Shown one piece after another: positions 10,741-49,183 of a stretch of 64,000 nucleotides of DNA. Position numbers and translations under genes: made by a program. Positions within the stretch are counted from its first letter, which is position 1. Every line of letters starts with the position of its first letter. Under the pieces are notes generated by a model. It ran no database searches, was not told the origin of the DNA, and saw only the letters and a list, made by a program, of their open reading frames with translations. This stretch comes from Rhodospirillales bacterium 24-66-33. Lineage in GTDB: Bacteria > Pseudomonadota > Alphaproteobacteria > Reyranellales > Reyranellaceae. The stretch spans positions 1-64,000 of the forward strand of contig NCHQ01000005.1 of NCBI GenBank assembly GCA_002281855.1. Reading direction: 5' to 3'.

Positions 10741-10758
10741 TTCTATCATTAATTAGAA
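10741..10758. promoter_or_regulatory. Candidate operator (site A) of the shared 18-bp dyad
   Basis: TTCTATCATTAATTAGAA fits TTCKAAT-N4-ATTMGAA with mismatches only in the inner left arm. It sits centrally between the divergent LLM gene (start 10688) and amidohydrolase (start 10818), about 55-60 bp from each, a position suited to controlling both promoters. Confidence 0.6.
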
Positions 10759-10817
10759 TTTACGCTGCGTGCAATGCCAATCCTGGCAGTCGGCCAGTAC
10801 AGTGAGGGGTGCGCGGC

Positions 10818-12515
10818 ATGACCTACGATCTGAAGATTGTCGGCGGCAGCATTGTAGATGGCACGGGGCGGGAGCGATTCCGTGGCGATATCGGCGTAAA
10901 GGATGGCCGGATTGTCGCTATCGGCGAGGCAACTGGAAACAGTGAACAGACAATCGATGCCGACGGATTAGTCGTGGCACCTGGCTTTGTTGACATTCAC
11001 ACCCACTATGATGCTCAGATCATGTGGGACCGGATGCTCAGCATTTCGCCTTGGCATGGCGTTACCACCGTCGTGATGGGCAACTGCGGCTTTGGCGTTG
11101 CGCCGACGCGGCCGGGTCACCGCAATTTGATTCTTCGAACCTTGGAAAAAGTCGAGGGCATGAGCGTCGAGGCGTTAGAGGCTGGGCTTGGGCCGAATTG
11201 GCCCTTTGAATCGTTTCCCCAGTACCTCGACGCGATTGAGCGCCGAGGCAGTGCGATCAATGTCGGCGTTCTCATCGGTCATACACCCGTGCGTTTTTAC
11301 GTCATGGGGGAAGAAGCTGTCGAACGGCCGGCGCGGCCCGAGGAACTAGTGCGTATGCGTGAACTGGTTCGGGAAGCGCTTGTCGCCGGGGCAGTCGGAT
11401 TCGCCACTTCGAAGGCTTCAACCCACGTGGGCTACGACGGCAAGCCGGTTCCGAGCCGGGCCGCGGAAGTATCGGAGATAATTTCACTAGCCAAGGTGTT
11501 AGGTGAGGTAGGCAGCGGAATATTCCAAGCGACCGTTGGTAAAGAACTGTTCTTGGAGGAATTCGCAGAAATTACGCGGGCGACCGGTCGTCCTGTCACC
11601 TGGACGGCATTGCTCACAGGGCTGTCGCTCGGAGCGGGCGATCACCGAGAACAGCTTCGTCGATCTGAGGAGTTGGCGGCGGAAGGATTGCCAATCTTCC
11701 CGCAAGTAACGCCTCGCGCGCTTATGTTTGATTACCAGCTCAAGCAACCTTTTCTTTTCGAGCCGATGTCCTTGTTCAAGCCAGTTGCTGCGGCAGATCA
11801 AGAAGGCAAGCGGCGCATCTATGCCGATCCCATCTTTCGAAATGCTTTCGCCGACTTGATGGAGCGGAGCGCAAGAGTGGCTTTCCGGTCAGCGTTTGCA
11901 AAGACGATCATTTCGCAGTTCAGCCCCGACCCGAAGTTGGAAGAACGGCTGTTGGTAGAGGTTTCACGAGAACGAAAAGTCAAACCAACTGATTTGCTAC
12001 TAGATCTCGCGCTGGCAACAAATCTGGATGCGCGCTTCCGTATGCCTGTAGCAAATCATGACGAAGCCGAAGTTGAAGGATTGTTGAAGAGTGCTTGTAC
12101 CGTGATCGGCTTGTCGGACGCTGGCGCTCATGCAAGTCAGCTCTGCGATGCCTGCTTGCCGACCTATTTGCTTGGCCATTGGGTTCGTGAAAAAGCGGCA
12201 TTTTCGCTGGAAGAGGCCGTGCGAATGCTAACCAGTCGTCCGGCCGAAGTATTTGGGCTTTCAGATCGCGGCTTGATTGCTTTGGGCAAGCCTGCGGATC
12301 TTGTAGTGTTTGATCCGGTGACAGTCGGTAGTGGCAAGGTTCGGCGGGTCTTTGACCTTCCGAGCGGCGCCGACCGTCTTGTTTCCGACGCTGCGGGTGT
12401 TGAGGCCGTAGTTGTGAACGGTACGGTCGTCAGGCAATTCAATCGGGACCTCTTGAACCACTCGACGTCAGTAATGCCGGGACGTCTATTGCGGCGTGGT
12501 CGAGCAGACGCGTAA
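10818..12515 (+). CDS. Amidohydrolase, N-acyl-D-amino-acid deacylase family
   Basis: This protein of 565 residues starts with the small beta domain (YDLKIVGGSIVDGTGRERFR) and then the metal-binding HTHYDAQ (H61, H63) in VAPGFVDIHTHYDAQ. GNCGFGVAP follows, and a SDAGAH motif late in the barrel. This layout is that of the COG3653 D-aminoacylase/dihydroorotase-like group, which is often of unknown substrate in catabolic clusters. A GTG at 10809 is an alternative start. It is the first plus-strand gene after site A. An IS3 element begins 14 bp after its stop, so any distal operon genes may have been separated from it. Confidence 0.85.
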   Translation: MTYDLKIVGGSIVDGTGRERFRGDIGVKDGRIVAIGEATGNSEQTIDADGLVVAPGFVDIHTHYDAQIMWDRMLSISPWHGVTTVVMGNCGFGVAPTRPGHRNLILRTLEKVEGMSVEALEAGLGPNWPFESFPQYLDAIERRGSAINVGVLIGHTPVRFYVMGEEAVERPARPEELVRMRELVREALVAGAVGFATSKASTHVGYDGKPVPSRAAEVSEIISLAKVLGEVGSGIFQATVGKELFLEEFAEITRATGRPVTWTALLTGLSLGAGDHREQLRRSEELAAEGLPIFPQVTPRALMFDYQLKQPFLFEPMSLFKPVAAADQEGKRRIYADPIFRNAFADLMERSARVAFRSAFAKTIISQFSPDPKLEERLLVEVSRERKVKPTDLLLDLALATNLDARFRMPVANHDEAEVEGLLKSACTVIGLSDAGAHASQLCDACLPTYLLGHWVREKAAFSLEEAVRMLTSRPAEVFGLSDRGLIALGKPADLVVFDPVTVGSGKVRRVFDLPSGADRLVSDAAGVEAVVVNGTVVRQFNRDLLNHSTSVMPGRLLRRGRADA

Positions 12516-12591
12516 AGGGTGAAGGGGTTGACCTGAGCCCCTGAATCACCTCCAGAAAAGGGTAGAGTCCGTCTTCGAGGGGAGACGGCAG

Positions 12592-12858
12592 ATGAAGAAG
12601 GCACGGTTCACGGAAGAACAGATCATCGGGGTTCTGCGGGAGCATGAGGCGGGTTCTGCGACGACAGATGTGTGTCGCAAGCACGGGATCAGCAGCGCGA
12701 CATTCTACAAGTGGAAGGCGAAATACGGCGGCCTGGAGGTGTCGGAAGCCAGGCGGCTGCGTTCGCTGGAGGACGAGAACCGTCGGCTGAAGAAGCTGCT
12801 GGCGGAGACGATGCTGGACGTGGCGATGCTGAAGGATATCGCTTCAAAAAAATGGTGA
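12592..12858 (+). CDS. IS3-family OrfA (transposase N-terminal part)
   Basis: The 88-residue protein has the IS3 OrfA pattern: MKKARFTEEQIIGVLREHEA, a helix-turn-helix with CRKHGISSATFYKWKAKYGG, then the leucine-zipper-like LEDENRRLKKLLAE. It overlaps orfB by 7 bp. It ends AAA AAA TGG TGA, so a -1 slip on the A7 run would make the OrfAB fusion. Confidence 0.9.
   Translation: MKKARFTEEQIIGVLREHEAGSATTDVCRKHGISSATFYKWKAKYGGLEVSEARRLRSLEDENRRLKKLLAETMLDVAMLKDIASKKW
12846..12852 (+). promoter_or_regulatory. A7 slippery site for programmed -1 frameshift
   Basis: The run A-AAA-AAA ends the orfA frame just before its stop and overlaps the orfB ATG. A -1 shift here is the usual way IS3 elements make the fused transposase. 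Confidence 0.75.
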
Positions 12859-13706
12859 CGCCCGCGGCGAAGCGAGAGGCTGCGGCGCACCTGTGCAACG
12901 TGCATGGGGTGAGCCAGCGGCGGGCGTGCCGCGCGATCGGGGTGGACCGGGCCCTGGTCCGCTACCAAAGTCATCGACCGGACGACAAGGCTGTCCGCAC
13001 GCGCTTGCGCGAGTTGGCGGCGGTGCGCCGTCGCTTTGGCTGGCGCCGGCTGCAGGTTCTGCTGTCGCGCGAGGGCGTTCACATGAACCACAAGAAGCTG
13101 CGCCGGCTGTACATCGAGGAGCGTCTGCAGGTTCGTCGGCGGATCGGACGCAAGCGGGCTGCAGTGACGCGGGTTCCGCTGATGGCGGCGCGAGCCCCGA
13201 ACCAGCGCTGGTCGATGGACTTCGTCCACGACGCGCTGAGTGACGGCCGCCGGTTCCGGATCCTGGCAGTCGTCGACGACTACACTTGGGAGAATCTGTG
13301 CCTGGTGGCCGACACCTCGCTGCCGAGCGGTCGAGTGATCCGCGAGTTGGAGGCCGTGATCGCGCGGCGAGGGCTGCCCCGGCAATGCGTCTCGGACAAT
13401 GGTCCCGAGTTCAACGGCCTGGCGATGCTCGGCTGATCGCAAGGCTTGGGGCTCGAATGGCACTACATCGATCCAGGCAAGCCGCAGCAGAATGCCTTCA
13501 TCGAAAGCTTCAATGGCCGCCTGCGCGATGAGTTCCTGAACGAAACGCTGTTCACCACGCTCGCCCAGGCGCGGGTCGAGCTCGAGGAATGGCGGCGCGA
13601 CTACAACACCGAACGGCCCCACAGCGCTCTCGGCAATCTGACGCCGATCGCCTACGCGGCTCGCAACGCCTCTGTTCCGCAACAGGCCGGGGCGCAGCTT
13701 ACCTGA
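12852..13706 (+). pseudogene. IS3-family OrfB (integrase domain) with internal stop
   Basis: OrfB starts MVTPAAKREAAAHL and shows HTH_21 (RRACRAIGVDRALVRYQS) and the rve integrase core. The DDE residues are D in RWSMDFVHDAL, D in VSDNGPEF, and E in [14 protein letters not shown]. One in-frame TGA at 13435-13437 breaks the protein at [15 protein letters not shown]; most relatives have Trp here, so TGG to TGA is the likely change. All catalytic residues are otherwise present. Confidence 0.88.
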
Positions 13707-13972: not shown

Positions 13973-14647
13973 TCAGGAACGAGCGCGCCGCCCTCTCGAG
14001 GAGCTTTCGAGCTGATCATCGCTCAATCCAACACCCTTTAAGACGACTTCGCAAAATTTCCGAGCTAGCTCGGGAATAGGCATACGGTCTGATCGATACC
14101 ATGTAACCGCCCAGTTCATTGAACCGAGAAGCATCAAACGCAGAATGGTCAGGTCCACATTCTTGCGAATCTCTCCTGAGCGCTGTCCTTCGGAAAGAAG
14201 CTGCCCCCAGTATTCGCCATAAGCGGTACGAAGCTTCCGATTCTGGCGTTTCACAGCCGGGGGCGCCTGCTCGAACACGCGTATGTTCGCCGATGTATAG
14301 TCGCCTTGCTGCAAAAGCATCGTAAGGTGAGCCGTCACCGCGGCCTCGAGCTTTTCGCTGAATGCAGAGGAAGCGGGCAGGGACCCGATGGCGAGACGGG
14401 CAGCGGAAAACACTCGAGTTATACCTACATCGAGCACTTCCTGCAGGATGTCGTCCTTTGACTCGAAGTAATAGTAGATGCTACCGCCTTGCATTCCTGC
14501 AGTCATCGCAATGTCGTTAATGGTCGTCCCAGCATATCCGTTGAGACTGAATGCACGTGCTGCTGCATCAAGGATGCGCTGCTTGGTGATCGCCGATTTC
14601 GGATGGGACACACGACGAGACCGGGCCGATACTCGTTGACTCACCAA
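13973..14647 (-). CDS. TetR/AcrR-family transcriptional regulator
   Basis: The protein has 224 residues. The N-terminal helix-turn-helix is clear: TKQRILDAAARAFSLNGYAG, TTINDIAMTAGMQGGSIYYY and FESKDDILQEV (about residues 22-72). The C-terminal ligand/dimer domain ends with a basic tail, SSSRGRRARS. It diverges from the oxidoreductase pseudogene and acyl-CoA dehydrogenase operon starting at 15056. An 18-bp dyad (site B) in the shared intergenic region recurs at six other promoters here, making this the best local candidate for its repressor. The link is by position; no binding data. Confidence 0.9.
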   Translation of the reverse strand: MVSQRVSARSRRVSHPKSAITKQRILDAAARAFSLNGYAGTTINDIAMTAGMQGGSIYYYFESKDDILQEVLDVGITRVFSAARLAIGSLPASSAFSEKLEAAVTAHLTMLLQQGDYTSANIRVFEQAPPAVKRQNRKLRTAYGEYWGQLLSEGQRSGEIRKNVDLTILRLMLLGSMNWAVTWYRSDRMPIPELARKFCEVVLKGVGLSDDQLESSSRGRRARS

Positions 14648-15055
14648 AAACCCCCATTTGGAGCCAGCATGGATTGGCTCAAACGCAACAAGACCGCGGC
14701 ATTTTCCGCGGGATTAGGCTGCAGATGCACCATTTTAGAAACGTCATAATACCCATGTGCGGCTTGAATGATAAGACCGCCATTGTTGCGATGGTACAAA
14801 ACATTGGCAGCACAATTAGGACGTCCTGCTCTTGACTCACTGATATGGCGTGCCTAGCGTTACTAATGATCATTCGAAATTAGCGTACTTTTGGGATTTC
14901 GACTTCCGCGTGTCTCAAGCTATGTAGATCCTCAAACCTACTATTCCATCATGTGACGGTGGCCAAGTAGAGATCTGCAAGTTGACCCCTCTGAGAACAC
15001 ATCACGATTCGAATCCTAGAGGTACAAACGTCTTTCAGGTGAGGAATCGACCTAC
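14648..15055. other. Intergenic region between tetR and the 15-kb operon
   Basis: This is 408 bp without a supported gene. It contains operator site B (14861-14878) and is locally AT-richer than its neighbours, as expected for a divergent promoter. AGGTGAGGA just before 15056 is a plausible ribosome binding site. No RNA gene was recognised. Confidence 0.6.
14861..14878. promoter_or_regulatory. Candidate operator (site B) near the TetR gene
   Basis: TACTAATGATCATTCGAA fits the dyad TTCKAAT-N4-ATTMGAA with one mismatch in the left arm. It lies about 215 bp from the TetR start and 178 bp from the plus-strand gene start at 15056. Confidence 0.6.
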
Positions 15056-15545
15056 ATGATCAAACGTTTCCATGTTCTTTATGTCGGACAGATCGATCTC
15101 GACAATGTCGGTCTCCAAGGGGCACCTGCGAACGACCGTCGCTATTCCAGCCAGCGACTGAGCGAAGTTTTTGCAACCGCACGCGAGCAGCCAGGAGGAG
15201 GCGATCCGCCGTGTCGAGCCGGCACATGACGAGCGCTACAAGTGGTTCGCGCCGTTCGGGTTCGTACGCTATGCCGATGAGCAGGGCCGCACTTGGGGCA
15301 CTCCGGGCGCGCCTTCGACGATCCCCTCGATCCGCGACGGCGTGAAGCAAAAGGCTTGGTTCTGTGGCCCGCCGGCCGAGGTCATCGAGGGGATCAAGTC
15401 GATCGAAGCCAAGTACCCCGGGCTCGAGGATTTCATGATCCACTGGGCCGAAGGATTGTCGCCGGCCGAGTTCAAGGACCAGCTGCGTTGGTTCGCGCGC
15501 GATGTCATGCCGGCGTTCGGGGAAGCGAGACTTGCTGCGGAGTAG
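15056..15545 (+). pseudogene. LLM-class flavin oxidoreductase with large internal deletion
   Basis: The N-terminal block from ATG 15056 (MIKRFHVLYVGQIDLDNVGL...NDRRYSSQRLSEVF) is typical of a luciferase-like oxidoreductase start. Near 15190 the frame changes, and the remaining 115 or so residues (EEAIRRVEPAHDERYKWFAP to WFARDVMPAFGEARLAAE) are the C-terminal end of the same family (WAEGLSPAEFKDQLRWFARD). Roughly 200-250 residues of the barrel are missing. The gene keeps a good ribosome site and the operator region, so the promoter may still drive the genes downstream. Confidence 0.78.
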
Positions 15546-18021: not shown

Positions 18022-18041
18022 GGCAGCGCGCGCCAAACTAG

Positions 18042-19932: not shown

Positions 19933-21162
19933 TCATCGGAAGACCACAGGAAGTTTCCGAGGACCGCGTACCGGGCCGTGCGACCAGGTTACGGAGGCGG
20001 GGTCGGCGAGCTCGAAGTCAGGAATACGCGCCAGCCATTCCTCCAGCGCTACCGTAATCTCCATGCGGGCGAGATTTGAACCGATGCACCGATGGATTCC
20101 CAGTCCAAAGGCGGCATGTCGGTTTTCGGCCCGATCGATCAGGACACGATCAGCCTGTGGAAAGACCTCTGGGTCACGATTGGCCGCCGGAAAGGACAAC
20201 AACACCATTTCGCGTTCCTTGAACGGGCAGCCGCCAACTGTTGTCTCCTTGGCGACTTGGCGAGCCATCGTCACCGGGGCATAGGCCCGCAGAAACTCTT
20301 CTACCGCAAGCGGCATGAGTGCAGGCTCGCTGACCAGCCGACGACGGTCATCACGGTGCTGGGCCAGATGCCATAGGCAGGAGCCGATGGCACTCCAGGT
20401 CGTATCGATGCCGGCAATCAGCAAAAGACGAAGCGTACCGATTATGTGCTCGTCAGAAAGGGGCTGATCCTCCATTTGTGCGCCAAGCAAGAAAGTGATC
20501 AGGTCCTCTCCAGGGATGGAACGACGGTTAGAGATCTGCACTCTGAAATAATCGTCCATCTCCGCGAGTGCTTGAGTGAAGGAGGCGTTTTCCGCGATTC
20601 CTTCGTGCAGCAGCAGGTGAATCCAGCGCCGGAACTTCTCGCCGTCTCCCTCCGGCAATCCGAGCATATGTGCAATGACGGCAACGGGAACATGCTGTGC
20701 ATAGTCGGTTGCCGCGTCGCAATGGCCATTCGATGCGAAGCGATCAATCAAGTTGCCACATATCGCTCGCGTCTTTGCCTCCAGGCGGCCAATTGCATCC
20801 GGGGTGAACGCGGGCAGCAGGAGCATTCGCGCCGGCCGATGATACGGTGGATCCGAGGTGATCGGTGGCGAAGCCAATGTCGACGCCCCAGGCGGGGATT
20901 TCGGCTTCCCGGAATCAGTTGGCACACGAGGTGGCATTTCACGAACGACCACACGGCGTGAAGAGAAGTGCTCCGTATCATATGCGATCGCCCGGATATC
21001 GGCGTAGCGGCTGGGAAAGTAGACGCCGTTGTATCGTTCAGTATGCGCGACAGGGCATTGCCGACGCAACTCATCCCAGATCTGATAGGGTTCGGTGACC
21101 CAACGTGGGTCCAGGTGATCGAAGTCTTTGGCCCAATCTGAGACAGGCGGGCGATCGGTCAT
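19933..21162 (-). CDS. Cytochrome P450
   Basis: The 409-residue soluble bacterial P450 has the I-helix AGIDTTWSAIG, K-helix EEFLRAY (ExxR), and heme-binding FGLGIHRCIGSNLAR with the thiolate Cys. No membrane anchor is present. DPPYHRPARMLLLPAF is the usual region between helices B and C. It hydroxylates or otherwise oxidises a substrate with electrons from a small ferredoxin, which is encoded immediately upstream (16-bp gap). A hydroxylase for a cyclic hydrocarbon or terpenoid acid is a reasonable guess from the surrounding pathway. Confidence 0.95.
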   Translation of the reverse strand: MTDRPPVSDWAKDFDHLDPRWVTEPYQIWDELRRQCPVAHTERYNGVYFPSRYADIRAIAYDTEHFSSRRVVVREMPPRVPTDSGKPKSPPGASTLASPPITSDPPYHRPARMLLLPAFTPDAIGRLEAKTRAICGNLIDRFASNGHCDAATDYAQHVPVAVIAHMLGLPEGDGEKFRRWIHLLLHEGIAENASFTQALAEMDDYFRVQISNRRSIPGEDLITFLLGAQMEDQPLSDEHIIGTLRLLLIAGIDTTWSAIGSCLWHLAQHRDDRRRLVSEPALMPLAVEEFLRAYAPVTMARQVAKETTVGGCPFKEREMVLLSFPAANRDPEVFPQADRVLIDRAENRHAAFGLGIHRCIGSNLARMEITVALEEWLARIPDFELADPASVTWSHGPVRGPRKLPVVFR

Positions 21163-21177
21163 GGTGAACTCCTTTAG

Positions 21178-21393
21178 TTAAGCCTGCGCCACCTTGATCG
21201 CGAATTCGGGGCAGTTGGCTTCCGCAAGCCGCGCCTTATCCTCGAGGCCGGGAGGGACCGTGCCATCGCCGACTGCGCGCGCGTGGCCGAGTTCATCGAG
21301 CTCGAACAATCTCGGTGCTATCGCCTTGCATCGGTTGTGTCCCTGACATCGCTCCGGGTCGACGATGATTTGAAGGACTTTATGCTCGGGCAT
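21178..21393 (-). CDS. Small [3Fe-4S]-type ferredoxin, P450 partner
   Basis: This 71-residue protein starts at MPEHKVLQIIVDPERCQGHN. The cluster ligands appear as CQGHNRC...NCPEFAI: the second position of the usual CxxCxxC is His, typical of P450-linked 3Fe-4S ferredoxins. An in-frame extension to 21477 exists but looks non-coding. It is the first gene of the minus-strand P450 operon, 119 bp from operator site C. Confidence 0.9.
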   Translation of the reverse strand: MPEHKVLQIIVDPERCQGHNRCKAIAPRLFELDELGHARAVGDGTVPPGLEDKARLAEANCPEFAIKVAQA

Positions 21394-21960
21394 ACCTGAA
21401 GCCCTCCCTGCGCAGTTTCCGAACGCGTCCGCTGTGCAATTGATGGATAGTCCGTCGCCTGCGCCATAATCGACCAACTGGCCAATTCGTCGGTAATCAG
21501 CAAGCGCAATCCTCTAATGGACGTTAGAAGTTCAGGCAAGGGTAGTCAATCGGTGCAACGGACCGTCCCAAGTGACCCGACCATTGTGGGAAGCCCAACA
21601 TTGCTCTCTCAGGTTTGGACATGGCGTCGCGCTCGCAAGAATACCGCCACTCTGCCGTGCGCAGGAACTTGTCGTGCATTGGCGGAGATCCTTGCGGCGC
21701 AGTCCAGGCAAGAATGTCGCTGCCAGTGGCCTGTGGAGGTCGCGGACCCCTTTGGGAACGGGAGCAGGTGTTTCGGCCTCGCCGTTCGGGAGGGGCAGAC
21801 CGCTTGACTCATCGGTAGCAGCCGCCTAGGTTTCTAACGGATATTTGAAAGTCCCCGGGCACAATCGCCTCGCCAAACGCGTGGAGCGGTCGGGGAAGGG
21901 CGCGCGGATTGGCTGTCGGTTCTATCGCCCGACTTGGCGAATTTATCTTTCGGGAGGCTC
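21394..21960. other. Divergent intergenic region between the ferredoxin and badH-like operons
   Basis: This is 567 bp. It holds operator site C (21512-21529) about 119 bp upstream of the ferredoxin start. The part from about 21560 to 21900 contains open frames without recognisable similarity. TTTCGGGAGGCTC before 21961 is a good ribosome site for the SDR. Confidence 0.55.
21512..21529. promoter_or_regulatory. Candidate operator (site C) of the shared 18-bp dyad
   Basis: CTCTAATGGACGTTAGAA matches TTCKAAT-N4-ATTMGAA at all but two arm positions. It lies between the divergent ferredoxin/P450 and SDR/BadI-like operons. Confidence 0.6.
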
Positions 21961-22728
21961 ATGGCCGGGATGCGCGGATTAAGAGACAAGCCTGTCATTG
22001 TCACGGGCGGCGCCAGCGGCATTGGCCGCGCGATCGCCGGGCGTCTCGCGGCCGAAGGTGCCGTCGTCGGCATCTTCGACATCAACGGCCAAGCGGCCGA
22101 AGCTGCGGCCAGTGCACTTCGCGAAAGTGGTGGTCGAGCTTCCGGTTACGAGGTCGACATCGTCGACTACGAGGTGGTTGCGCGGTCTGTCGATGCGTTT
22201 GAGGCGGCCTCTGGCCCGATCGGCGGGCTGGTGAACAACGCCGGCTGGGACAAGGCAGTGCGCTTTGTGGACAGCGACCGGGACCTCTGGCGTAAGGTGA
22301 TCGACATCAATCTCTGGGGGCCGCTCAACGTCACACACGTCGTGCTGAAAAAGATGGTCAAGCATGGCAAAGGCCACGTTGTCAGTATTGCCTCCGACGC
22401 GGGTCGGGTCGGCTCCTCGGGCGAAGCTGTCTATTCGGCCTGCAAGGGCGGCATTGCAGCGTTCGGCAAGACATTGGCGCGGGAAGTGGCACGTCAGGGG
22501 ATCGTGTTCAACACGGTCTGCCCAGGACCGACCGACACGCCCCTGTTTGCGACTGTCAGCGAATCTGCGGCGGGGCTTGCCGAGGCCCTGAAGAAGGCGA
22601 TCCCGCTCCGTCGCCTGGGGCAGCCGGACGACTATCCCGGCATCGTCTGCTTCCTGCTGAGCGACGACGCCAGCTTCATCACCGGCCAGACCATCAGCGT
22701 CTCCGGTGGCCTCACGATGCATGGGTAA
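21961..22728 (+). CDS. badH: SDR, 2-hydroxycyclohexanecarboxyl-CoA dehydrogenase-like (BadH type)
   Basis: The 255-residue SDR has cofactor motif TGGASGIG, NNAGWDKAV, IASDAGRVGSSGEAVYSACK (catalytic Ser and YxxxK) and VCPGPTDTPLF. The RVGSSGEAVY and CPGPTDT stretches recall BadH-type enzymes that oxidise 2-hydroxycyclohexanecarboxyl-CoA to the 2-keto form. Support for this comes from the next gene, a BadI-like hydrolase four bases downstream that acts on that product. The ATG at 21961 follows a GGGAGG ribosome site. The exact ring substrate remains open. Confidence 0.72.
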   Translation: MAGMRGLRDKPVIVTGGASGIGRAIAGRLAAEGAVVGIFDINGQAAEAAASALRESGGRASGYEVDIVDYEVVARSVDAFEAASGPIGGLVNNAGWDKAVRFVDSDRDLWRKVIDINLWGPLNVTHVVLKKMVKHGKGHVVSIASDAGRVGSSGEAVYSACKGGIAAFGKTLAREVARQGIVFNTVCPGPTDTPLFATVSESAAGLAEALKKAIPLRRLGQPDDYPGIVCFLLSDDASFITGQTISVSGGLTMHG

Positions 22729-22732
22729 TTCG

Positions 22733-23524
22733 ATGGACTATCAGGACATTCTCTACGCTCAGGCCGACCACGTCGCCACGATCACGATCAATCGGCCAAA
22801 GGTCTACAATGCGTTTCGCCCGCGCACCGTGGTGGAACTCCTCGACGCCTTTCTGAAGGCGGGCTGGGATGACGACGTCGGCGCCATCGTCCTGACCGGA
22901 GCCGGCGACAAGGCCTTCTGCACCGGCGGCGACCAGTCCGATCACAGCGGCCAGTACGGCGACGGGTCGACGCGTGGCTCGGTCGGCATGCCGGTCGAGG
23001 AGCTGCACAGCGTCATCCGCGATGTGCCGAAGCCGGTGATCGCCAAGGTGCGCGGTTACGCGATCGGCGGCGGCAATGTTCTGGCCACGCTCTGCGATCT
23101 CACTATCGCTGGCGAAGGTGCCATCTTCGGTCAGGTCGGACCAAAGATGGGCTCGGTCGATCCCGGGTTCGGCACCGCTTATCTCGCGCGCGTGGTCGGC
23201 GAGAAGAAGGCGCGAGAGATTTGGTACATGTGCCGGCGCTACACGGCGCGCCAGGCGATGGACATGGGGCTGGTCAACGCCGTCGTGTCCGACGACAAGC
23301 TCGATGCCGAAGTCGAGGCGTGGTGTGCCGAACTGGTGCAGCGCAGCCCCACGGCGATAGCCATCGCCAAGAAGTCCTTCAACGCCGACAGCGAAAACAT
23401 TCGCGGCATCGGCGGTCTTGGGATGCAGGCCCTGCGCCTTTACTACGCGAGTGCCGAATCCCAGGAGGGGGTCAAGGCGCTCAACGAGAAGCGCCCGCCA
23501 CGCTTCAGGGACTTCCTCAAGTAA
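22733..23524 (+). CDS. badI: 2-ketocyclohexanecarboxyl-CoA hydrolase-like protein (BadI/MenB group)
   Basis: This crotonase-fold protein has 263 residues. The segments AFCTGGDQSDHSGQYGDGST, VPKPVIAKVRGYAIGGGNVL, IFGQVGPKMGSVDPGFGTAY and KKAREIWYMCRRYTARQAMD are those of BadI, the ring-opening hydrolase that turns 2-ketocyclohexanecarboxyl-CoA into pimeloyl-CoA. They are shared with MenB, but no menaquinone genes are near. It is directly downstream of the BadH-like SDR and just before an acyl-CoA dehydrogenase. The ATG at 22733 is used. Confidence 0.82.
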   Translation: MDYQDILYAQADHVATITINRPKVYNAFRPRTVVELLDAFLKAGWDDDVGAIVLTGAGDKAFCTGGDQSDHSGQYGDGSTRGSVGMPVEELHSVIRDVPKPVIAKVRGYAIGGGNVLATLCDLTIAGEGAIFGQVGPKMGSVDPGFGTAYLARVVGEKKAREIWYMCRRYTARQAMDMGLVNAVVSDDKLDAEVEAWCAELVQRSPTAIAIAKKSFNADSENIRGIGGLGMQALRLYYASAESQEGVKALNEKRPPRFRDFLK

Positions 23525-23534
23525 GGGCCGACGG

Positions 23535-24689
23535 TTGGACTTTTCCTTTACCCTCGAACAGCAGCAGATTGGCGAGACCGCTCGGCGTTTTGGCGTCGAA
23601 AAGCTCGCGCCGGGGTATGCCGCGCGCGAGCAGCAGGGCCACATTGCGCCATCGCTGATACGGGAGATGGGTGCCGTCGGACTGATTGGTGTCGATCTGC
23701 CGGAGGCGTTCGGCGGGCTCGGCGCGGACGGCGTCACGGCCGGGCTGGTGATCGAAGGCATTGCTGCAGCCGACCTTGGCGTCGCCTATGTGCAGCTTCT
23801 CGGGTCTTTGATGGGGTCGATCCTGGCGCGCCATGGACCGCCTGAGATCGCGAGCGACGTCGTGCCGAGGATTTGCCGGGGTGAGACTTTGGTGGCGCTG
23901 GGCCTGACCGAGCCGCGCGGCGGTTCCGATGCTGCAAACCTCCAGCTCAAGGCGCGCCGCGACAACGAAGGCTATGTGCTCGACGGCGAAAAGACCTCGA
24001 TTTCGATGATCGAACAGGCGGAGTCGATTGTGGTCTTCGCCCGAACCGGCGCGGCCGACTCCGGGGCTCGCGGCGTGACGGCCTTCCACGTGCCGCTCGA
24101 CCTTCCCGGCATCAGTCGTTCCAGCTTCAACGACGTGGGGTCGAAGGTTGTCGGTCGCGGCTCGGTCTTCTTCCAGGACGTCAAGGTGCCAGATAAATGG
24201 CGCATCGGCGGTGAAGGCGAAGGCTTCCGTACGGTCATGCAAGGCTTCGACTACAGCCGCGCGCTGATTGGCCTGCAAGTGCTGGCGCCGGCCCGCGCGT
24301 CGCTCGAGGAAACCTGGCGGTACGTCACCGAACGCCAAGCCTTCGGCCATCCGCTGGCACGCTATCAAGGCGTGACGGAGCCCCTGGCCGAGGCGGAGAC
24401 GCTGCTCACCGCCGCCAGGCTCCTTTGCTATCGGACGCTGTGGCTGCGCGATCAGGGCATGCCCCACACGTCGGAGGCGGCGATGTGCAAATGGTGGGCC
24501 CCGAAGACAGCCTTTCAGACCATTCACCGGTGCCTGCTGACGCACGGTCATTCCGGCTACACGATGGATCTGCCACACCAACAGCGCCTGCGCGACGTGA
24601 TGGGCCTGCAAATCGGCGACGGCACCGAGCAGATCCAGAAGATGATCATCGCGCGCGAGAAGATCGGGCGCGTCGCGGTGCCTTACTAG
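23535..24689 (+). CDS. Acyl-CoA dehydrogenase, possible cyclohexanecarboxyl-CoA dehydrogenase
   Basis: The 384-residue protein reads from a TTG (DFSFTLEQQQIGETARRFG). GLTEPRGGSDAANLQLKARR is the FAD/substrate segment, and RQAFGHPLARYQGVTEPLAE is the usual helix. At the C-terminal catalytic position most relatives have xEGTxxIQ; here it is IGDGTEQIQKMIIARE, with Asp in place of Glu. It follows the BadI-like gene by 10 bp and precedes a hydratase. A role in oxidising an alicyclic acyl-CoA (AliB-like) would complete the local module. Substrate is inferred from context. Confidence 0.85.
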   Translation: MDFSFTLEQQQIGETARRFGVEKLAPGYAAREQQGHIAPSLIREMGAVGLIGVDLPEAFGGLGADGVTAGLVIEGIAAADLGVAYVQLLGSLMGSILARHGPPEIASDVVPRICRGETLVALGLTEPRGGSDAANLQLKARRDNEGYVLDGEKTSISMIEQAESIVVFARTGAADSGARGVTAFHVPLDLPGISRSSFNDVGSKVVGRGSVFFQDVKVPDKWRIGGEGEGFRTVMQGFDYSRALIGLQVLAPARASLEETWRYVTERQAFGHPLARYQGVTEPLAEAETLLTAARLLCYRTLWLRDQGMPHTSEAAMCKWWAPKTAFQTIHRCLLTHGHSGYTMDLPHQQRLRDVMGLQIGDGTEQIQKMIIAREKIGRVAVPY

Positions 24690-34668: not shown

Positions 34669-35124
34669 TCAGCCGCGGCCCGCCATCATGCGGATCGCAC
34701 TATAGGTTATCACTACTTCGTTTCGCTGGTTGACGATGTTGTTGGTCGTCGTGACAATTCCCCGGTTCCCCTTACTCGTTGGCCGGATGGCTGTCACTTC
34801 CACTTCACCGTGAATGGTATCGCCGACATTGGTCGGAGCATGCACCTTTATGGTCGATTCCAGCATTGCGAGGCCGGTATGCTGCATCGTGGCCTGAACC
34901 AAGAGGCCTTCGATGAAACAGTAGCAGAGGGCGCCTGGCACAGGACGGCCCGCTATCGCACCGTGTTGTTCGCCAAACGTCACGTCGGTGAAGATCATCT
35001 CGACCATACCTGTCGCATTGATGAAATTCACCAGATCAGCCTCGGTGATGGTGCGATTGATGGTGCGGAATTTCTGGCCGACCTTCAGGTCAGTCCAGAA
35101 CAGTCCCAGGCCGACGTAGTCCAT
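34669..35124 (-). CDS. MaoC-like hydratase / hotdog protein
   Basis: The 151-residue protein starts [20 protein letters not shown], then TITEADLVNFINATGM, GRPVPGALCYCFIEGLLVQA and the ending SAIRMMAGRG. The T-E-D-v-x-F element and following hydratase-like helix are those of MaoC dehydratases. An upstream region and first 30 codons nearly the same as this gene's recur at 39.4 kb as a broken copy. Operator site D is 91 bp upstream. It likely hydrates an enoyl-CoA. It is convergent with the thioesterase. Confidence 0.85.
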   Translation of the reverse strand: MDYVGLGLFWTDLKVGQKFRTINRTITEADLVNFINATGMVEMIFTDVTFGEQHGAIAGRPVPGALCYCFIEGLLVQATMQHTGLAMLESTIKVHAPTNVGDTIHGEVEVTAIRPTSKGNRGIVTTTNNIVNQRNEVVITYSAIRMMAGRG

Positions 35125-35701
35125 GCGATCTCCCAAATGCCACAGCAAGGATAGCGGCGACGGTTACCTTTACTCTCCCCTGAATGAGCGTATTTTGGCA
35201 TACTTCGCGGCATGTTCTAATGTTAATTCGAATTCGGTAGCTATTGTTTCTCATATGAGCGCATGTCGGTCGTCGCGGCCAGCCCTTGCTGTGCGGCCTC
35301 GCCGGGTGCCGCCTCGAGATAGACAAAGCGGTCGGCGAGGCGCTGCTCGCTGAGATGCTGCCGGACACGACGTCCATACAGCAGATGCGAGGGATGGTGG
35401 ACCTCGACCTCTGGCCCGATATGGTACAATCACCGGATGATTGCGCTGACCCGAAAGAATGCCCGGTTTGCCGGGCTCCGATGGCGGTTCATCGTCCCTC
35501 GCAAGCGTGGTCGCGATGAGCCCTCTCCTTCCTCCTTCCTCACTCCAGAGCGCTTGCTTAATGCGGCTGATTCAGTTCCAGATGACTGGTGTCAATTCGA
35601 ATTTGTAGCGAAGACCGGCTACCGGCCGCGACTTCAACCTGCTGTCGTTCTCAGGCAGGCTCAAATTGAGAATGGGCTTCAGCTGAACTGTTGATCGAAT
35701 T
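35125..35701. other. Intergenic region between maoC-like and emrB genes
   Basis: This is 577 bp. Operator site D lies at 35215-35232. The remainder contains short frames on both strands (for instance 85 codons at 35437-35694, plus) without recognised similarity. A fragment on the minus strand (35241-35429) may be gene debris. A second spaced half-site ATTCGAA occurs near 35600 but lacks the matching arm. Confidence 0.5.
35215..35232. promoter_or_regulatory. Candidate operator (site D) upstream of the MaoC-like gene
   Basis: TTCTAATGTTAATTCGAA matches the consensus dyad with both outer arms exact. It lies 91 bp upstream of the MaoC-like start. The duplicated upstream region near 40.75 kb keeps a matching site (E). 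Confidence 0.68.
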
Positions 35702-38316: not shown

Positions 38317-38813
38317 TCTGGCTGCGGCTGTCCCGCCGGTCGATGGCCGTCCCTGCTGGCCTTTGACATGTTGAGGCGAGCGACCGCAAGCGCTCTCAGC
38401 AGCGTCGATCGTTCCTCCGGGCGAAGGCCGGTCATCGCAAGCTCACGGGTCTCTCTCGCCAAATGTTCCATGCGGGCGATCAGCGGCCGGGCCTTGCGCG
38501 TGGCAAACAGACGCCACGCGCGCCGGTCCTGTGCGTCCGCACGACGCTCGATCAATTCCGAACGCACGAGGCCGTCCAGTACGCGGCTGACAGAGATCGG
38601 CCGCATTTCTATGATCTCGGCGAGATCGGCAGCGCGTAATCCTGGCTTGCGTGCTACGTGCACGAGAAGGCGCCAGCTCGATTGCCCCAACCCGCTCCAT
38701 GCCATCTGGGCGGCGAAGTGGCGACGCATCAGTCGCGCCACGTCGTAGACCAGCATGCCCATGGTTTGGGTGGGATCATCCGGCTCGGCAGCAAGCATCG
38801 GCGACGATATCAT
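38313..38813 (-). CDS. MarR-family transcriptional regulator
   Basis: The 166 residues have a winged helix-turn-helix: GQSSWRLLVHVARKPGLRAA, DLAEIIEMRPISVSRVLDGL, then VRSELIERRADAQDRRAW as the wing. ATG 38813 is chosen (MISSPMLAAEPDD); the frame is open further upstream but lacks family features. First gene of marR-emrA-emrB. A dyad in the promoter is described separately. Confidence 0.92.
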   Translation of the reverse strand: MISSPMLAAEPDDPTQTMGMLVYDVARLMRRHFAAQMAWSGLGQSSWRLLVHVARKPGLRAADLAEIIEMRPISVSRVLDGLVRSELIERRADAQDRRAWRLFATRKARPLIARMEHLARETRELAMTGLRPEERSTLLRALAVARLNMSKASRDGHRPAGQPQPE

Positions 38814-38817
38814 TAGT

Positions 38818-38836
38818 AAGTAAGTTAAGCTTATTT
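38818..38836. promoter_or_regulatory. Candidate MarR operator upstream of marR-emrAB
   Basis: AAGTAAGTTAAGCTTATTT is an inverted repeat with arms AAGTAAG and CTTATTT (six of seven pairing) and a 5-bp centre. It starts 5 bp upstream of the marR ATG. Position and size fit autorepression by MarR. It is unlike the 18-bp dyad of the catabolic promoters. Confidence 0.55.
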
Positions 38837-38949
38837 GTTTGCGAACGCAAGTCGATAGGACGGAAAGAGTCTCGACGCGTTGATCGAGAGCGGCGCTGTC
38901 AGATGCGCAGGAGCGGCGCCTTGCGAATCGCGCGCGTTCGCAGAGCGTC

Positions 38950-39272
38950 AACCAGCGGGCTGCCGCCGCGGCGCTCTACCAGCAAGCAAAGGTATTTCGT
39001 CTTAAAGGGGAGTTCGTGGCGGCCGAGGAGGCGTATCGAGGCCCGAGCCAGCCGCGCTTGGAACCCCAACCGGGCTTGGCGCTGTTGCGCTTCGTACAGG
39101 GACGCTCCGACGAGGCCACCGCCGCCATTCGTCGCGTCGCAAGCACGATGGTTGGCCGGTTGAAAGCGCCTGCCGAGAGCTGGAGGATATTGCCCGGAGC
39201 TTCGATACGGGGATGCCAGGCGCGATTGCCGCGCAGGCGTGCGGAGCGGTAGTCCTCGCCGAAGCCGAGTAA
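38950..39272 (+). pseudogene. Remnant of the TPR region of a LuxR-type regulator
   Basis: A plus-strand frame reads QRAAAAALYQQAKVFRLKGE, FVAAEEAYRGPSQP, LEPQPGLALLRFVQGRSDEA and TAAIRRVAST, typical of the tetratricopeptide part of large LuxR regulators. After a frame change it continues ESACRELEDIARSFDTGM to a TAA at 39270-39272. N-terminal and DNA-binding parts are absent and several indels occur, so this is a fossil, not a gene. Confidence 0.7.
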
Positions 39273-39550: not shown

Positions 39551-40660
39551 TTGACTCTCTCAGAGTGGATCGGGGCGCTGACCGGAGCGGCCCATGGCGA
39601 GAAGAGCCCGAACCGGCTGGCGCAGCGCAACGGCTATCGCGACCGCGACTGGGAGACCCGGGCGGGTACGGTCGAGCTGCGCATCCCGAAGTTACGCAAG
39701 GGCAGCTACTTCCCGGGCTTCCTGGAACCGCGCCGAATGGCCGAGAAGGCGCTCACCGCCGTCATCCAGGAGGCCTACATCCAAGGCATCTCGACCCGTT
39801 CTGTCGACGAGCTGGTCAAGGCGATGGGCATGAGCGGCATCTCCAAGAGCCAGGTCTCACGGCTGTGCGAGGAGATTGACCAGCGGGTGAAGGCCTTCCT
39901 CGACCGGCCGATCGAAGGGGATTGGCCGTATCTGTGGATCGACGCGACCTACGTGAAGGTCCGCCAGGCCGGCCGCATCGTCTCGGTCGCCGTCATCGTG
40001 GCCGTCGGGGTCAATGCCGATGGCCGGCGCGAGGTGCTGGGTATGGATATCGGCCCGTCCGAGGCCGAGACCTTCTGGACCGCCTTCCTGCGCAAGCTCG
40101 CCCGCCGTGGGTTACGCGGCGTCAAGCTCGTCGTCTCCGACGCCCACGAGGGTATCAAGGCCGCCATCTCCCGGATCTTCACCGCCACCTGGCAGCGCTG
40201 TCGCGTTCACTTCATGCGCAACGCCCTGGCGCATGCCGGCAGGAGTGGCCGGCGTGTCGTCTCTGCGTTCATCGCAACAGCCTTCGCCCAGGACGACGCC
40301 GAGCAGGCCAAGGCCCAATGGCGCCGTGTCGCCGATCAACTAAGACCGAAAGTCCCCAAGCTTGCTGCCTTGATGGATCAGGCCGAGCCCGACGTGCTGG
40401 CCTACATGAGCTTCCCGCCCCAGCACCGCACCAAGCTGCACAGCACCAATCCGCTGGAGCGATTGAATGGCGAGATCAAGCGACGCACCGAGGTCGTCGG
40501 CATCTTCCCCAACGAAGCCGCCATCACCCGCCTCGTCGGAGCCATTCTGCTCGAACAGAACGACGAGTGGGCCGTCCAGCGCGCCCGCTACATCACGCTG
40601 GAAAGTATCTCACCCGTCGGCAATGATCCCATTGTCGGCCTGCCCATCGCGGCTGACTGA
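39551..40660 (+). CDS. tnpA: IS256-family transposase, N-terminally truncated
   Basis: The 369 residues include [40 protein letters not shown], the DDE acids in [13 protein letters not shown] and [11 protein letters not shown], and [16 protein letters not shown] (third acid). Relatives begin about 35-45 residues earlier, and the same family at 60.9 kb keeps that start (MTADMMDLHTLVE). Here the frame begins from a TTG in the maoC-like upstream DNA, so the native start was lost. It is inserted between the maoC fragment and its operator site E. Confidence 0.88.
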
Positions 40661-41009
40661 CCGATCCGGCTCCGGCTCGGAATCGTCGTACTGGCTGAAC
40701 GTCAGATACACCACGCCTCGGGGCACGATCGCCGCGCATCGCCGCGCGGCATATTCTAATGTAAAGTCGAATTCGGCGGTAATGATTTCGTATGCGCACG
40801 GAACCAGAATTGAATGTTGCGCACGCGGAAATTCTAATGGATGTTCAATAACAAGCAGAGCAGACTAGTGCTGGAGGGAGCGACGGCCAAGTTGCGCGAG
40901 AAATCCGGTTTCGAGGAAATTCTAGCTCGGATTGAACGCGGCCCGTTCATGGTGGTCCCAGCCCATCGTCAAGCATTGCCAATGCGGCAAACCTTGGCGG
41001 TCTTAGAAG
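40661..41009. other. Non-coding region carrying stranded operators
   Basis: This is 349 bp. From about 40743 it resembles the region upstream of the intact MaoC gene (GGCATATTCTAATG against GGCATGTTCTAATG). It holds operator site E (40754-40771), and a weaker look-alike TTCTAATGGATGTTCAAT at 40832-40849. A frame from ATG 40841 (MFNNKQSRLVLEGATAKLRE) is not recognised. Confidence 0.55.
40754..40771. promoter_or_regulatory. Candidate operator (site E), stranded by IS256
   Basis: TTCTAATGTAAAGTCGAA matches the dyad in nearly all arm positions. It is orthologous in position to site D but now lies more than 1.2 kb from the maoC fragment because IS256 sits between. Confidence 0.62.
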
Positions 41010-41177
41010 ACGTTCATGCTCTTCACCAAGGTCGACTCCTGGTTCATGGGTATCAACACGAACGTGCCAGGCAAGCAGAAGCGCACCTTCCTATTGTACT
41101 CGGGGGGTGCCCCAGCTTACCGCGAGAAATGCGACGAGGTGACTGCGCGAGGCTACGAAGGGTTCATCCTGACATAA
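41010..41177 (+). pseudogene. C-terminal fragment of a Baeyer-Villiger monooxygenase
   Basis: The frame reads TFMLFTKVDSWFMGINTNVP, GKQKRTFLLYSGGAPAYREK and CDEVTARGYEGFILT before a TAA. These are the last 55 residues of cyclohexanone-monooxygenase-like enzymes (DSWYMG...NVPGKxR, YREKCDEVAANGYEGF). The rest of the gene is missing. It is a different subtype from the intact enzyme at 49290, which ends in another way. Confidence 0.78.
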
Positions 41178-41242
41178 GCCCGCATACCCGGATGAACCTC
41201 CCGAACTTGATCGCGCTGATTCCAATTGAGCTATAAGATTCG

Positions 41243-42472
41243 GTGTCATATCTCATTGGATCGTTGATGGCGCGACCAGCAGGTGAATCGTATTCCGATG
41301 CTCTCCGGCTGGATTTCGACCGCCGCCTCAAGCTGGAGTTCCACGGTTCCAGCGTCACCTCCGATGCCGGACTGCTGGCCTATCGCGAGTTCGATGACGC
41401 ACTCGGCCTGATGGCCATCACGGAGCAACATCTGGTTGACGGCCGCACGGGGCGGAACGGTCGGCATGATCTTGTCGGCATGTTGCGCCAGTCGGTGTTC
41501 GGTCGTCTTGCCGGATACGAGGACGTCAAACGACGCCGACCGGCTGGGGCGTGATCCTGCGATGCGCTGGATCGTCGGCGGCAAGGCTGTCGAGCACGAA
41601 GCGGCTTCGACCAGTCTGATGGGGCGGTTCGAGGCCGAGTGGCTGGCGAGCGACGAGAACCTCGCCGCGCTCATCGATCTGCCGGGGCGGTGGATCGACC
41701 GCGTTCGTGGCCGCGGCTCGCCAGAGACCATCGTGCTTGATATGGATTCGAGCGTCAGTCCGACCCATGGCGAACAGGAAGGTACAGCCTACAACGGCCA
41801 CTTCGCCTGTACCTGCTATCATCCGCTGTTCGTGTTCAACCAGTTCGGCGCCCTCGAACGCTGTGCGCTGCGCCCGGGCAAAGTCCCTTCGGCGAACGGC
41901 TGGAAGAGTGTGCTCGAACCGGTCGTGGCCCGTTACTGGGAGCGCGGCCTCCGCCGCTACTTCCGCGACGATGCCGCCTTCGCCAACCCCGAGGTCTACG
42001 AGTTCCTGGAGGCCGAAGACTATAAGTACGCGATCCGGCTGCCCGCCAACCACATCCTGCAGGACAAGATCAGCTATCTGCTGAAACGCCCGGTCGGGCG
42101 TCCGCCGCATCATGTGCGTCAGTACTACGCCAACTTCCGCGTCGGCTTCATCGTGACGAACATGAGCCGCCCGGGCAAGAACGCGATCGTGTGGACGCGG
42201 CTGTCATGCTGCGCGTTCGCCGCCAACGCGGTACGTCTTCAGTTACACGCCTTAGTCTACACGCTGGCCTTCATGCGGACGCTGGCCCTGCCCGAGGCGG
42301 TCGCGCAGTGGTCGCTGACCACTCTGTGCGAGAAGCTGATCAAGATCGGGGGCCAAGGTCGTGCGGCACGACCCGCCGTCTTCCAGATGGCCGAGGTCGC
42401 AGTGCCGAAGCAACTGTTGAGGACATCCTGCGGCTGATCGAAGGACTGCGACCAGGACCGGCCCCAGCGTAG
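41243..42472 (+). pseudogene. tnpA: IS1380-family transposase, frameshifted and internally deleted
   Basis: The start reads ARPAGESYSDALRLDFDRRL, LEFHGSSVTSDAGLLAYREF, typical of IS1380. One extra A near 41528 breaks EDVNDADRL. The second frame holds VLDMDSSVSPTHGEQEGTAY and RADAAFANPEVYEFLEAE-like segments. Between VTNMSRP and GKNAIVWTRLSC the family normally has an Asn-Arg-Gly-Glu-Trp-rich region, which is deleted here. Paired compensating slips near 42350 and a lost base near 42417 follow. It ends LIEGLRPGPAPA at 42472. Confidence 0.85.
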
Positions 42473-47437: not shown

Positions 47438-47640
47438 TCAAAGCTCGACGGTCTGCAGCCACTTCCGAGCTTCGTGCAAACTTCGGAACAACTTCACGGG
47501 CCTGTCACCTTTGGTGACGTCCGCAAAGACGTCGGCAAAGCCTGGCAATCAGGGTTGATCACGAAGGCGACAGGGCCCCGCGCTGCCGAGCCGAGAGTCT
47601 CGCGGAGCATTACCGAGATTCGTTCGACTTGCTCCCGCAC
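47438..47640 (-). pseudogene. C-terminal fragment, STAS/SpoIIAA-like hypothetical protein
   Basis: The minus strand reads VREQVERISVMLRETLGSAA then GPVAFVINPD, then in another frame QAFADVFADVTKGDRPVKLF and RSLHEARKWLQTVEL to TGA at 47438-47440. The ...LFRSLHEARKWL ending resembles small STAS-like proteins. The assignment is tentative, and a frameshift is certain if the two halves belong together. Confidence 0.45.
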
Positions 47641-47903: not shown

Positions 47904-47929
47904 GGTGGATCCTCACCTACTTGGCATTG

Positions 47930-48906
47930 TGGGAATGAATTGCAGCCCTGCGGCACCGGAGCGCTCCGCGAAAACGGTGGGCGCCTTCGCCCTTTCGGCA
48001 TAGACCGATGCCTTCGAACTGCAGCAGGCAGGAAATCGAGAAGCAGTCGTAGATCTCGGCAATATCGGCGTCCTTCGGGGCGATGCCAGCGGATGCAAAC
48101 GCGCGTCGATCGGCTTCGGCCGCGCCCGGCATTGCGGTTAGGCAGGAACCCTGTGTGAACACCGAGTCGCCGGTTACGGGCGCCGAGGCAAACCCCGTTC
48201 CGAGCACTCAGACCGGCCGCATCGAACAATCGCGTGCGCGATCCATGGCCGTCATCACGAAGGCGCCGGCCCCGTCGGTAATCAAGCAGCACTCCGCCGC
48301 CCGAAGCGGGTCTGCGATCATGCGCGAGTTGAGGTACTGCTCGAGCGTCAGGGAGTCGCGAAGCTGGCCGCGGTCGTTGAGGAGGGTGTGTTGCCGGTGC
48401 GACACGGCCAAAGCGCCTAGCTGGCGCTCGGTGAGACCGTAGTCGTGCATATAGCGCCGCGCCCAGAGGGCAAAATAGATCGGCTGCGCGTTGAAGCCGT
48501 AGGGCTTCTCGAATACCTGCTTTGCGGGGTAAAGGTCGTGGAAAGCATAGGGCCCCTCGGTGTGAGCGCCCCAATCGACGCCGAAGTAGCAGACAACGAC
48601 GTTGGCGAGGCCTGATGCAGTCGCGTGCTGCGCGAGCTGGGGCGCACAGACGATTCCCGCGCTGCCCATCGCACCGGAAGCTGCGAAACAGTTCGATGCG
48701 CCGGGCTGAGCAGCGAGGTAGTCGTAAGGGGCTTCCGTCGGCATGATCACCGCGTCGGTGACCAAACCGTCAATCTCCTTTGGGGAGATTCCCGCGCCGT
48801 CGAGGGCGGCCAGCACGGCGTCGACGACCATTGCGCGCAGACTGCGGCCTGAACGACGCACTGGCGGGGTCTCGCCGATGCCGACGATCGCGATTACGCG
48901 GGTCAT
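47930..48906 (-). pseudogene. Thiolase-fold (SCP-x-like) pseudogene
   Basis: The start is MTRVIAIVGIGETPPVRRSG, then IDGLVTDAVIMPTEAPYDYL and GLTERQLGALAVSHRQHTLL. An in-frame TGA at 48208-48210 separates CSMRPV from VLGTGFASAPVTGDSV. A further frameshift lies near 47990 (GYCRKGEGA to TVFAERSGA). The final 100 or so residues are absent. It is a second, diverged member of the same family as the intact gene at 31319. Confidence 0.8.
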
Positions 48907-49065
48907 TTCCGTGCCCCTCGATTCATCCTTAAGCCCGATCCTGCCGCAGCCAGCGCTCGACTTCGTGGCGCTGGATCAATAGACGGCGTGGGGATCGGCG
49001 ATGAAGTCGGGATGTCTCAGATCAGGGTCTGTCGCCATACATCCCTCGTCGACCCAAACAATTAA

Positions 49066-49083
49066 TTCTAACTTGCATTCGAA
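49066..49083. promoter_or_regulatory. Candidate operator (site F)
   Basis: TTCTAACTTGCATTCGAA fits the shared dyad with one inner-arm mismatch. It lies 160 bp upstream of the thiolase pseudogene start. Confidence 0.62.
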
Positions 49084-49165
49084 TAGATAATCGAGTCAAA
49101 TCAATCGGCGCCCGAGGAAAGTCCTCTTTCGCTGTGACATCCGTCTCCAGCCTATCGACGATACT

Positions 49166-49183
49166 TTCGAATGAAAATTCGAA
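49166..49183. promoter_or_regulatory. Candidate operator (site G), perfect dyad
   Basis: TTCGAATGAAAATTCGAA is a perfect inverted repeat (7-bp arms TTCGAAT and ATTCGAA around GAAA), the best member of the set. It lies 107 bp upstream of the monooxygenase start and exactly 100 bp from site F. Confidence 0.7.

Follow-up and report, generated by a model that had tools for sequence, protein, structure and literature searches.

The stretch analysed here, called the window throughout, comprises the first 64 kb of a 304-kb contig of Rhodospirillales bacterium 24-66-33, a member of the family Reyranellaceae whose genome of 6.12 Mb is available in 54 contigs and which belongs to the same genus as G010, one of the family genomes compared below. 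The window carries a cluster of catabolic genes, a gene for a TetR-family regulator and an 18-bp dyad that recurs in the gaps between the genes. Searches with Pfam and NCBIfam models identified flavin-containing (FMO-type) and luciferase-like (LLM-type) monooxygenases, short-chain dehydrogenases/reductases (SDR), an amidohydrolase, a cytochrome P450 with its ferredoxin, acyl-CoA dehydrogenases, enoyl-CoA hydratase types, a Rieske oxygenase alpha subunit, amidohydrolase-2 proteins, thiolases and a MaoC-like protein. The regulator and the principal predicted target genes are located as follows.

13973..14644, minus strand: TetR-family regulator (GTG start assumed; PF00440 TetR_N and PF17932 TetR_C_24), predicted master repressor of the cluster.
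19933..21477, minus strand: P450 (best match in the PDB, P450cin) and ferredoxin, assigned by Pfam and PDB; predicted target.
21962..24689, plus strand: BadH-like dehydrogenase, BadI-like ring-opening hydrolase and AliB-like acyl-CoA dehydrogenase (NCBIfam TIGR03206, TIGR03210 and TIGR03207, respectively); predicted target operon.
49290..50927, plus strand: Baeyer-Villiger monooxygenase, best PDB match OTEMO; predicted target.

A scan with a symmetric matrix built from eight sites revealed at least eight strong dyads in the window and two weaker ones. The eight sites themselves ranked highest (29.5 to 22.9 bits), with 49078 (16.7) and 40832 (14.3) next, and the improved consensus reads TTC(T/G/A)AAY-N4-RTT(A/C/T)GAA. 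The dyads are listed here without strand.

10741..10758: dyad TTCTATCATTAATTAGAA, between an LLM monooxygenase gene (9516-10688, minus) and an amidohydrolase gene (10809-12515, plus).
14861..14878: dyad TACTAATGATCATTCGAA, about 215 bp upstream of the TetR gene and also upstream of a truncated LLM gene.
21512..21529: dyad CTCTAATGGACGTTAGAA, about 35 bp upstream of the ferredoxin/P450 genes (minus).
21832..21849: dyad TTCTAACGGATATTTGAA, upstream of the BadH-BadI-AliB-like operon (plus), about as strong as 21512.
35215..35232: dyad TTCTAATGTTAATTCGAA, 67 bp upstream of the MaoC-like gene (34669-35148, minus).
40754..40771: dyad TTCTAATGTAAAGTCGAA, preceding the remnant of a decayed gene.
40832..40849: weak dyad TTCTAATGGATGTTCAAT, which overlaps the remnant at its start and has a counterpart in G022.
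49066..49083: dyad TTCTAACTTGCATTCGAA, upstream of a thiolase gene (minus).
49078..49095: weaker dyad TTCGAATAGATAATCGAG, overlapping the 49066 site by 6 bp to give three half-sites in a row.
49166..49183: dyad TTCGAATGAAAATTCGAA, 107 bp upstream of the OTEMO-like Baeyer-Villiger monooxygenase gene (49290-50927, plus).

The initial annotation had listed seven of these sites as instances of TTCKAAT-N4-ATTMGAA. All seven were found at the positions given for them, and 21832, 49078 and 40832 had been overlooked. Only 35215 and 49166 fit that pattern exactly; one mismatch was present in 14861, 40754 and 49066, and two in 10741 and 21512. The same annotation placed every site between divergent genes or just upstream of catabolic genes; 40754 faces the decayed remnant and not an intact catabolic gene. 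The distances from site to start codon range from about 35 to about 215 bp.

The dyads are far more frequent in the window than its composition predicts. With up to three mismatches the pattern of the initial annotation had 11 matches, and 100 dinucleotide shuffles of the window gave a mean of 2.9 and a maximum of 8. In leave-one-out matrix scans each of the eight strong sites was among the top eight positions of the window, and scores as high as theirs occurred 0 to 0.03 times per shuffled window (60 shuffles). By our own gene list all eight lie wholly in non-coding DNA, which makes up 13.8% of the interval 7256-50927. In the genome as a whole 16 places matched the pattern with up to two mismatches, nine of them in the window, which is 1% of the genome, and seven elsewhere (reversed control pattern, 4); all five matches with at most one mismatch were in the window. 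The strong copies are thus all outside genes, as had been stated for the seven, and the matches are concentrated in the cluster. On the strength of the window shuffles, the genome counts, the leave-one-out scans and the unguided search described below, a chance origin of the sites was rejected. Five of the matches outside the window (L007, L008, L013, L014 and L015) overlap open reading frames of at least 100 codons and may be coding; the sixth (L006) precedes a DeoR-type gene, and the seventh is located on contig C46 (L228). Two of the five, both on contig C36 (L014:1501-1518 and L015:1501-1518), resemble a different palindrome, TTCGCAT-N4-ATGCGAA, perhaps the site of another regulator.

Among 75 genomes of the family, an orthologue of the TetR gene was found in ten, including that of the window; the nine others are 70-99% identical to it, one of them partial. 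Exact matches to TTCDAAYNNNNRTTHGAA amounted to 40 sites in the 75 genomes, 30 of which were in the ten genomes with the orthologue, and the reversed control gave 5. All ten genomes with the orthologue had exact matches, compared to 7 of the 65 without it (10 sites, 3 of them in G034). The co-occurrence is significant by Fisher's test (p = 2e-8, relatedness of the genomes being ignored).

In the regions fetched from the family most sites were found at the same promoters despite a differing gene order. The block at 10741 is conserved with one change in G022, G010 and G017, and 14861 has a counterpart between the TetR and LLM genes in G022, G010, G006 and G048. Sites 21512 and 21832 are both kept in G022, G010, G034, G017, G006 and G048; 35215 has counterparts in G022, G034, G017, G006, G048 and G024, and 40754 one in G022 with a single base different. 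The counterparts of 49166, TTCGAATGACAATTCGAA, are present in G022, G006, G048 and G017, and those of 49066 in G022 and G024, where the overlapping layout of 49066/49078 is repeated; the genes adjoining 49066 vary between genomes. In G005 the cluster is rearranged such that the TetR gene is located between the BadH operon and the ferredoxin gene, with a dyad on either side. Pairwise alignments of the gaps showed 89-100% identity within the sites and 51-57% outside them in five comparisons. The comparison of orthologous promoters that the initial annotation had proposed thus finds the dyads conserved, also where the clusters have been rearranged. Two overlapping exact dyads, making three half-sites, were also seen at L166:9204-9233 in G033, where no TetR orthologue was found.

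More distant TetR homologues were examined by scanning their upstream stretches with a matrix trained on the window only, at p<0.01 with 500 shuffles per locus. Homologues at E<=1e-38 were present in 23 of 385 genomes of the class, including that of the window and one family member, and relatives of BadH, BadI or AliB were found within the 1.5-kb flanks at 12 of the 24 loci outside the family (L198-L221). An upstream dyad was detected at 20 of 29 distant TetR loci or, as two were duplicated between collections, at 18 of 27 distinct ones, and at none of the 11 loci of control TetR proteins with 27-36% identity; one control locus, L039, had a 14.6-bit match elsewhere in its 3.6 kb, outside the tested stretch. 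When the upstream regions were searched without guidance from the window, the highest-ranking dyad was TCTAAC-N4-GTTAGA, present in 22 of 26; 60 runs on shuffled sequence yielded counts of no more than 6 of 26. Of the more divergent TetR homologues within the family (34-43% identity), eight were considered separately, and L029-L033 displayed an upstream dyad of 15.6-24.8 bits. In four alphaproteobacterial metagenome-assembled genomes (L053-L056) a TetR gene of 47-48% identity is divergent from relatives of BadI, AliB, enoyl-CoA hydratase, SDR and Rieske proteins, with one dyad in the gap. As judged from the sequences, the pairing of TetR and dyad is strong, though not universal. Paralogous TetR clusters in G017 and G040 (L172:774-9299 and L167:4765-9778; 37-38% identical) were seen to have a variant dyad of the TTCTAAA-N4-TTTAGAA type and are located near LLM, Rieske and SDR relatives.

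The TetR protein of the window contains the TetR_N helix-turn-helix and a helical C-terminal domain, both characteristic of its family. Its AlphaFold2 model (predicted local distance difference test score, pLDDT, 92.3) has the TetR fold, and the closest folds in Foldseek and VIA-align comparisons include PfmR, FadR, DarR, AibR and KstR2. The palindrome at 14861-14878, upstream of its gene, is a further trait of the family. No other TetR-type protein was found among the window proteins scanned, in agreement with the initial description of a sole TetR gene flanked by a dyad. The homologues L025-L027 of genus g5, which are without the dyad, carry TF at the positions taken by MQ in the window protein (residues 51-52, in the recognition helix). 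A link of this difference to the missing dyad is suggestive, and we draw no conclusion from it because five other dyad-poor homologues (L207, L209, L214, L216 and L221) retain the usual kind of residue at these positions.

Several observations weigh against the reading of the dyads as operators of this regulator. The co-occurrence counts are not independent, because sites and genes are inherited together. G034 has the same dyad promoters and no TetR orthologue was found in it; its contig begins 87 bp from the ferredoxin gene, and the missing gene is probably due to this contig end. Site 35215 has been lost in G010, where a neighbouring dyad is present instead, and in G017 the counterpart of 14861 has stayed with the LLM gene at a distance of 3.6 kb from TetR. 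No upstream dyad was detected for the g5 homologues L025, L026 and L028. Nine of the 27 distinct distant loci missed the threshold of p<0.01, some of them narrowly (L205, 0.012; L212 and L213, 0.01; L207, 0.028), and L209, L214, L216, L221 and L027 were clearly without an upstream dyad in the window-matrix test. The coding control of the unguided search had its top dyad in 15 of 26 regions, for another word. A promoter scan of one gap, 10689-10808, gave no sigma-70-like match and did not support an overlap of dyads with promoters. The weaker sites 49078 and 40832 may be non-functional, and outside the cluster a match scoring 21.2, TTCATATGAACATTCGAA (L006:1501-1518), precedes a DeoR-type regulator gene by 44 bp.

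The arrangement resembles known regulons in kind. In mycobacteria one TetR repressor, KstR, has its palindrome in its own promoter and in many dispersed catabolic promoters, with two copies in one gap (PMC1995591), and this distribution of palindromes around one TetR gene, the doubled gap included, is shared with the window. KstR differs in governing lipid and cholesterol genes of actinobacteria through the operator core TnnAACnnGTTnnA (PMC1995591); compared by eye with this published consensus, the AAC/GTT arms of KstR are 2 bp apart and the TTCTAAY arms of the window 4 bp. MbdR of Azoarcus sp. CIB is a Gram-negative TetR repressor that has a CoA ester as inducer and whose 18-bp palindrome occurs in several promoters within a single ring-degradation cluster, but it controls the anaerobic 3-methylbenzoate pathway through ATACN10GTAT (PMC4424350), to which the window sites, again by eye, do not conform. 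BadR of R. palustris and Aromatoleum governs ring opening of the BadH/BadI/AliB type and likewise has a CoA ester as inducer, but it is a MarR-family protein with the operator CAAN4TTG (PMC9795900). That looser sequence was found 11 times in the window, never within the gap before the BadH-like gene (21478-21961) and once, at 14797, in the TetR gap. The bad-ali clusters are described as having a MarR-type badR in Gram-negatives and a TetR-like gene in Gram-positives (PMC9795900), whereas the ring-opening cluster of the window, although Gram-negative, is accompanied by a TetR gene and by an operator of another sequence. TetR-type genes are also part of the aliB-containing cyclohexanecarboxylate cluster chcpca of Rhodococcus aetherivorans BCP1, which is Gram-positive (PMC5906575). 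Bacillus FadR, KstR2, PfmR and AibR share the fold of the window protein, as modelled, but only 18-25% of its sequence. No report of the operator motif or of this TetR was present among the literature matches listed, a search that left subscription papers largely outside. On these searches the combination of regulator, operator and targets appears to be new, and its kind is known from KstR and MbdR.

We consider it very probable that the dyads, of the TTCTAAY-N4-RTTAGAA type, are the operators of the TetR protein, a protein that would keep its own gene and the ring-degradation operons repressed until a CoA thioester of the pathway releases it. The dyads are likely TetR operators because at least eight copies in intergenic gaps follow one TetR-family gene across genomes. 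The shared dyad had been put forward as the mark of a TetR regulon, and this proposal is supported by its concentration in the cluster, its conservation at orthologous promoters and its association with TetR both in the family and in other alphaproteobacterial families. By analogy with related repressors, a TetR dimer would sit on each dyad and block RNA polymerase, thereby repressing the TetR gene itself and the surrounding operons, and a pathway CoA thioester would release it as in FadR, KstR2 and MbdR. Such release is likely by family analogy, to which the protein is tied here by similarity of fold. The paired and overlapping sites (21512/21832 and 49066/49078/49166) may provide separate operators for the two arms of a divergent gap.

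The TetR might instead bind the dyads and mainly activate, or it might sense free substrate, a terpenoid or, like DarR, a nucleotide, and not be a repressor relieved by a CoA ester. We regard this as unlikely, while noting that the closest folds include DarR proteins (30-33% identity), whose structures were solved with cyclic nucleotides, and that the spacing of sites and starts varies more than pure promoter occlusion requires.

Loci of BadI paralogues bear on whether the dyad is tied to the regulator or to the targets. Where BadI is at least 92% identical, dyads were found at all ten loci, and in G075, with a BadI of 82% and a TetR of 48% identity, there is a weak one (12.8). At five paralogue loci of 62-71% identity none had a dyad at the BadH/BadI promoter; in L197 a match of 14.6 lies downstream of BadI. 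A MarR_2 gene was present within 3 kb at at least four of the five dyad-less loci, among the matches listed. CAAN4TTG was located just upstream of the MarR gene in L223, L225 and L227 and upstream of BadH in L226, and was not found nearby in L224. G006 holds both arrangements and represents a natural experiment: one of its BadI copies is next to a MarR gene and has no dyad at its promoter, and another belongs to a TetR/dyad cluster. These observations suggest that the dyad goes with TetR and not with the ring-opening genes as such.

It is hard to credit that the dyads are operators of another regulator with which TetR merely shares the cluster. The most plausible candidates for this role are two proteins encoded within the window, a MarR protein (38313-38951) and an IclR protein (59638-60411). 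Published Gram-negative bad-ali clusters are under MarR proteins (PMC9795900), and relatives of the window MarR (81-93%) lie beside dyad-bearing clusters in G022, G034 and G005. However, no close relative of it occurs in the fetched dyad-bearing regions of G010 (none), G006, G048, G017 and G024 (42-45%), and the IclR protein has no match in the ten family regions compared; the absence of close relatives from several such regions disfavours either as the cognate regulator. The BadR-type operator CAATN2ATTG of R. palustris, sought before the ring-opening genes, does not occur in the window. The dyad is also found just upstream of TetR at five distant loci without Bad-type neighbours in the 1.5-kb flanks (L210, L211, L217, L218 and L219). 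The idea that the motif is no functional operator, but either a consequence of common ancestry or a mobile repeat dispersed along with insertion sequences, can be dismissed almost entirely: transposase genes occur at several window positions and 35215 and 40754 share some flanking sequence, but the 18 bp stay while flanks diverge, rearranged clusters retain the sites, and the dyad is found again in front of distant TetR genes.

The predicted targets include BadH-, BadI- and AliB-like genes for ring opening. The bit scores of the Bad-type proteins are all below the curated cut-offs (BadH, 311.6 against 431.2; BadI, 430.7 against 467.6; AliB, 549.5 against 575.35), which places them outside the equivalog level; they are, by these matches, relatives of those enzymes. 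Their operon possibly continues to about 34600. We infer that the cluster degrades an alicyclic ring, perhaps of monoterpenoid type, a substrate suggested by the P450cin-like and OTEMO-like matches; the cleavage of monoterpene rings is reported to involve BadH/BadI-like enzymes (PMC4109377). An in-frame TGA at 48208-48210 splits the thiolase gene (48208-48906, continuing to 47917), which is a single open frame in G006, G048, G017 and G024. The frame at 15162-15545 beside TetR is a C-terminal fragment of an LLM-type monooxygenase that is full-length in G022, G006, G048 and G017 and shortened in G010. The remnant at 40830-41177, behind two dyads, has an end matching the C-terminus of a Baeyer-Villiger monooxygenase (55% over 42 residues). 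Transposase and IstB-type genes are scattered in the window (96-5610, 12672-13436, 39551-42437 and 61015-61572), which fits a rearranged island.

The evolutionary history of the system may be depicted as follows. The simple layout, with TetR divergent from a BadI/AliB operon and one dyad between them, occurs in other alphaproteobacterial metagenome-assembled genomes, and more dyad-bearing operons are found in the family of the window. We lean slightly towards a history in which an alphaproteobacterial TetR lineage with its own operator replaced the MarR-type BadR at BadHI/AliB ring-opening modules. In that history, Reyranella and related bacteria would further have acquired the operator at promoters of oxygenase, Baeyer-Villiger, thiolase and amidohydrolase genes, and a scattered, repeatedly rearranged terpenoid-like catabolic island would have become a single CoA-ester-sensing regulon. 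TetR control of this cluster would be an exception to the rule of MarR control in Gram-negative bad-ali clusters (PMC9795900). The operator may be used to find further target genes across the Alphaproteobacteria, and the TetR protein is a candidate sensor of alicyclic CoA esters. A large uncharacterised catabolic island of Reyranella-type bacteria is thereby given a testable regulator, operator and target set.

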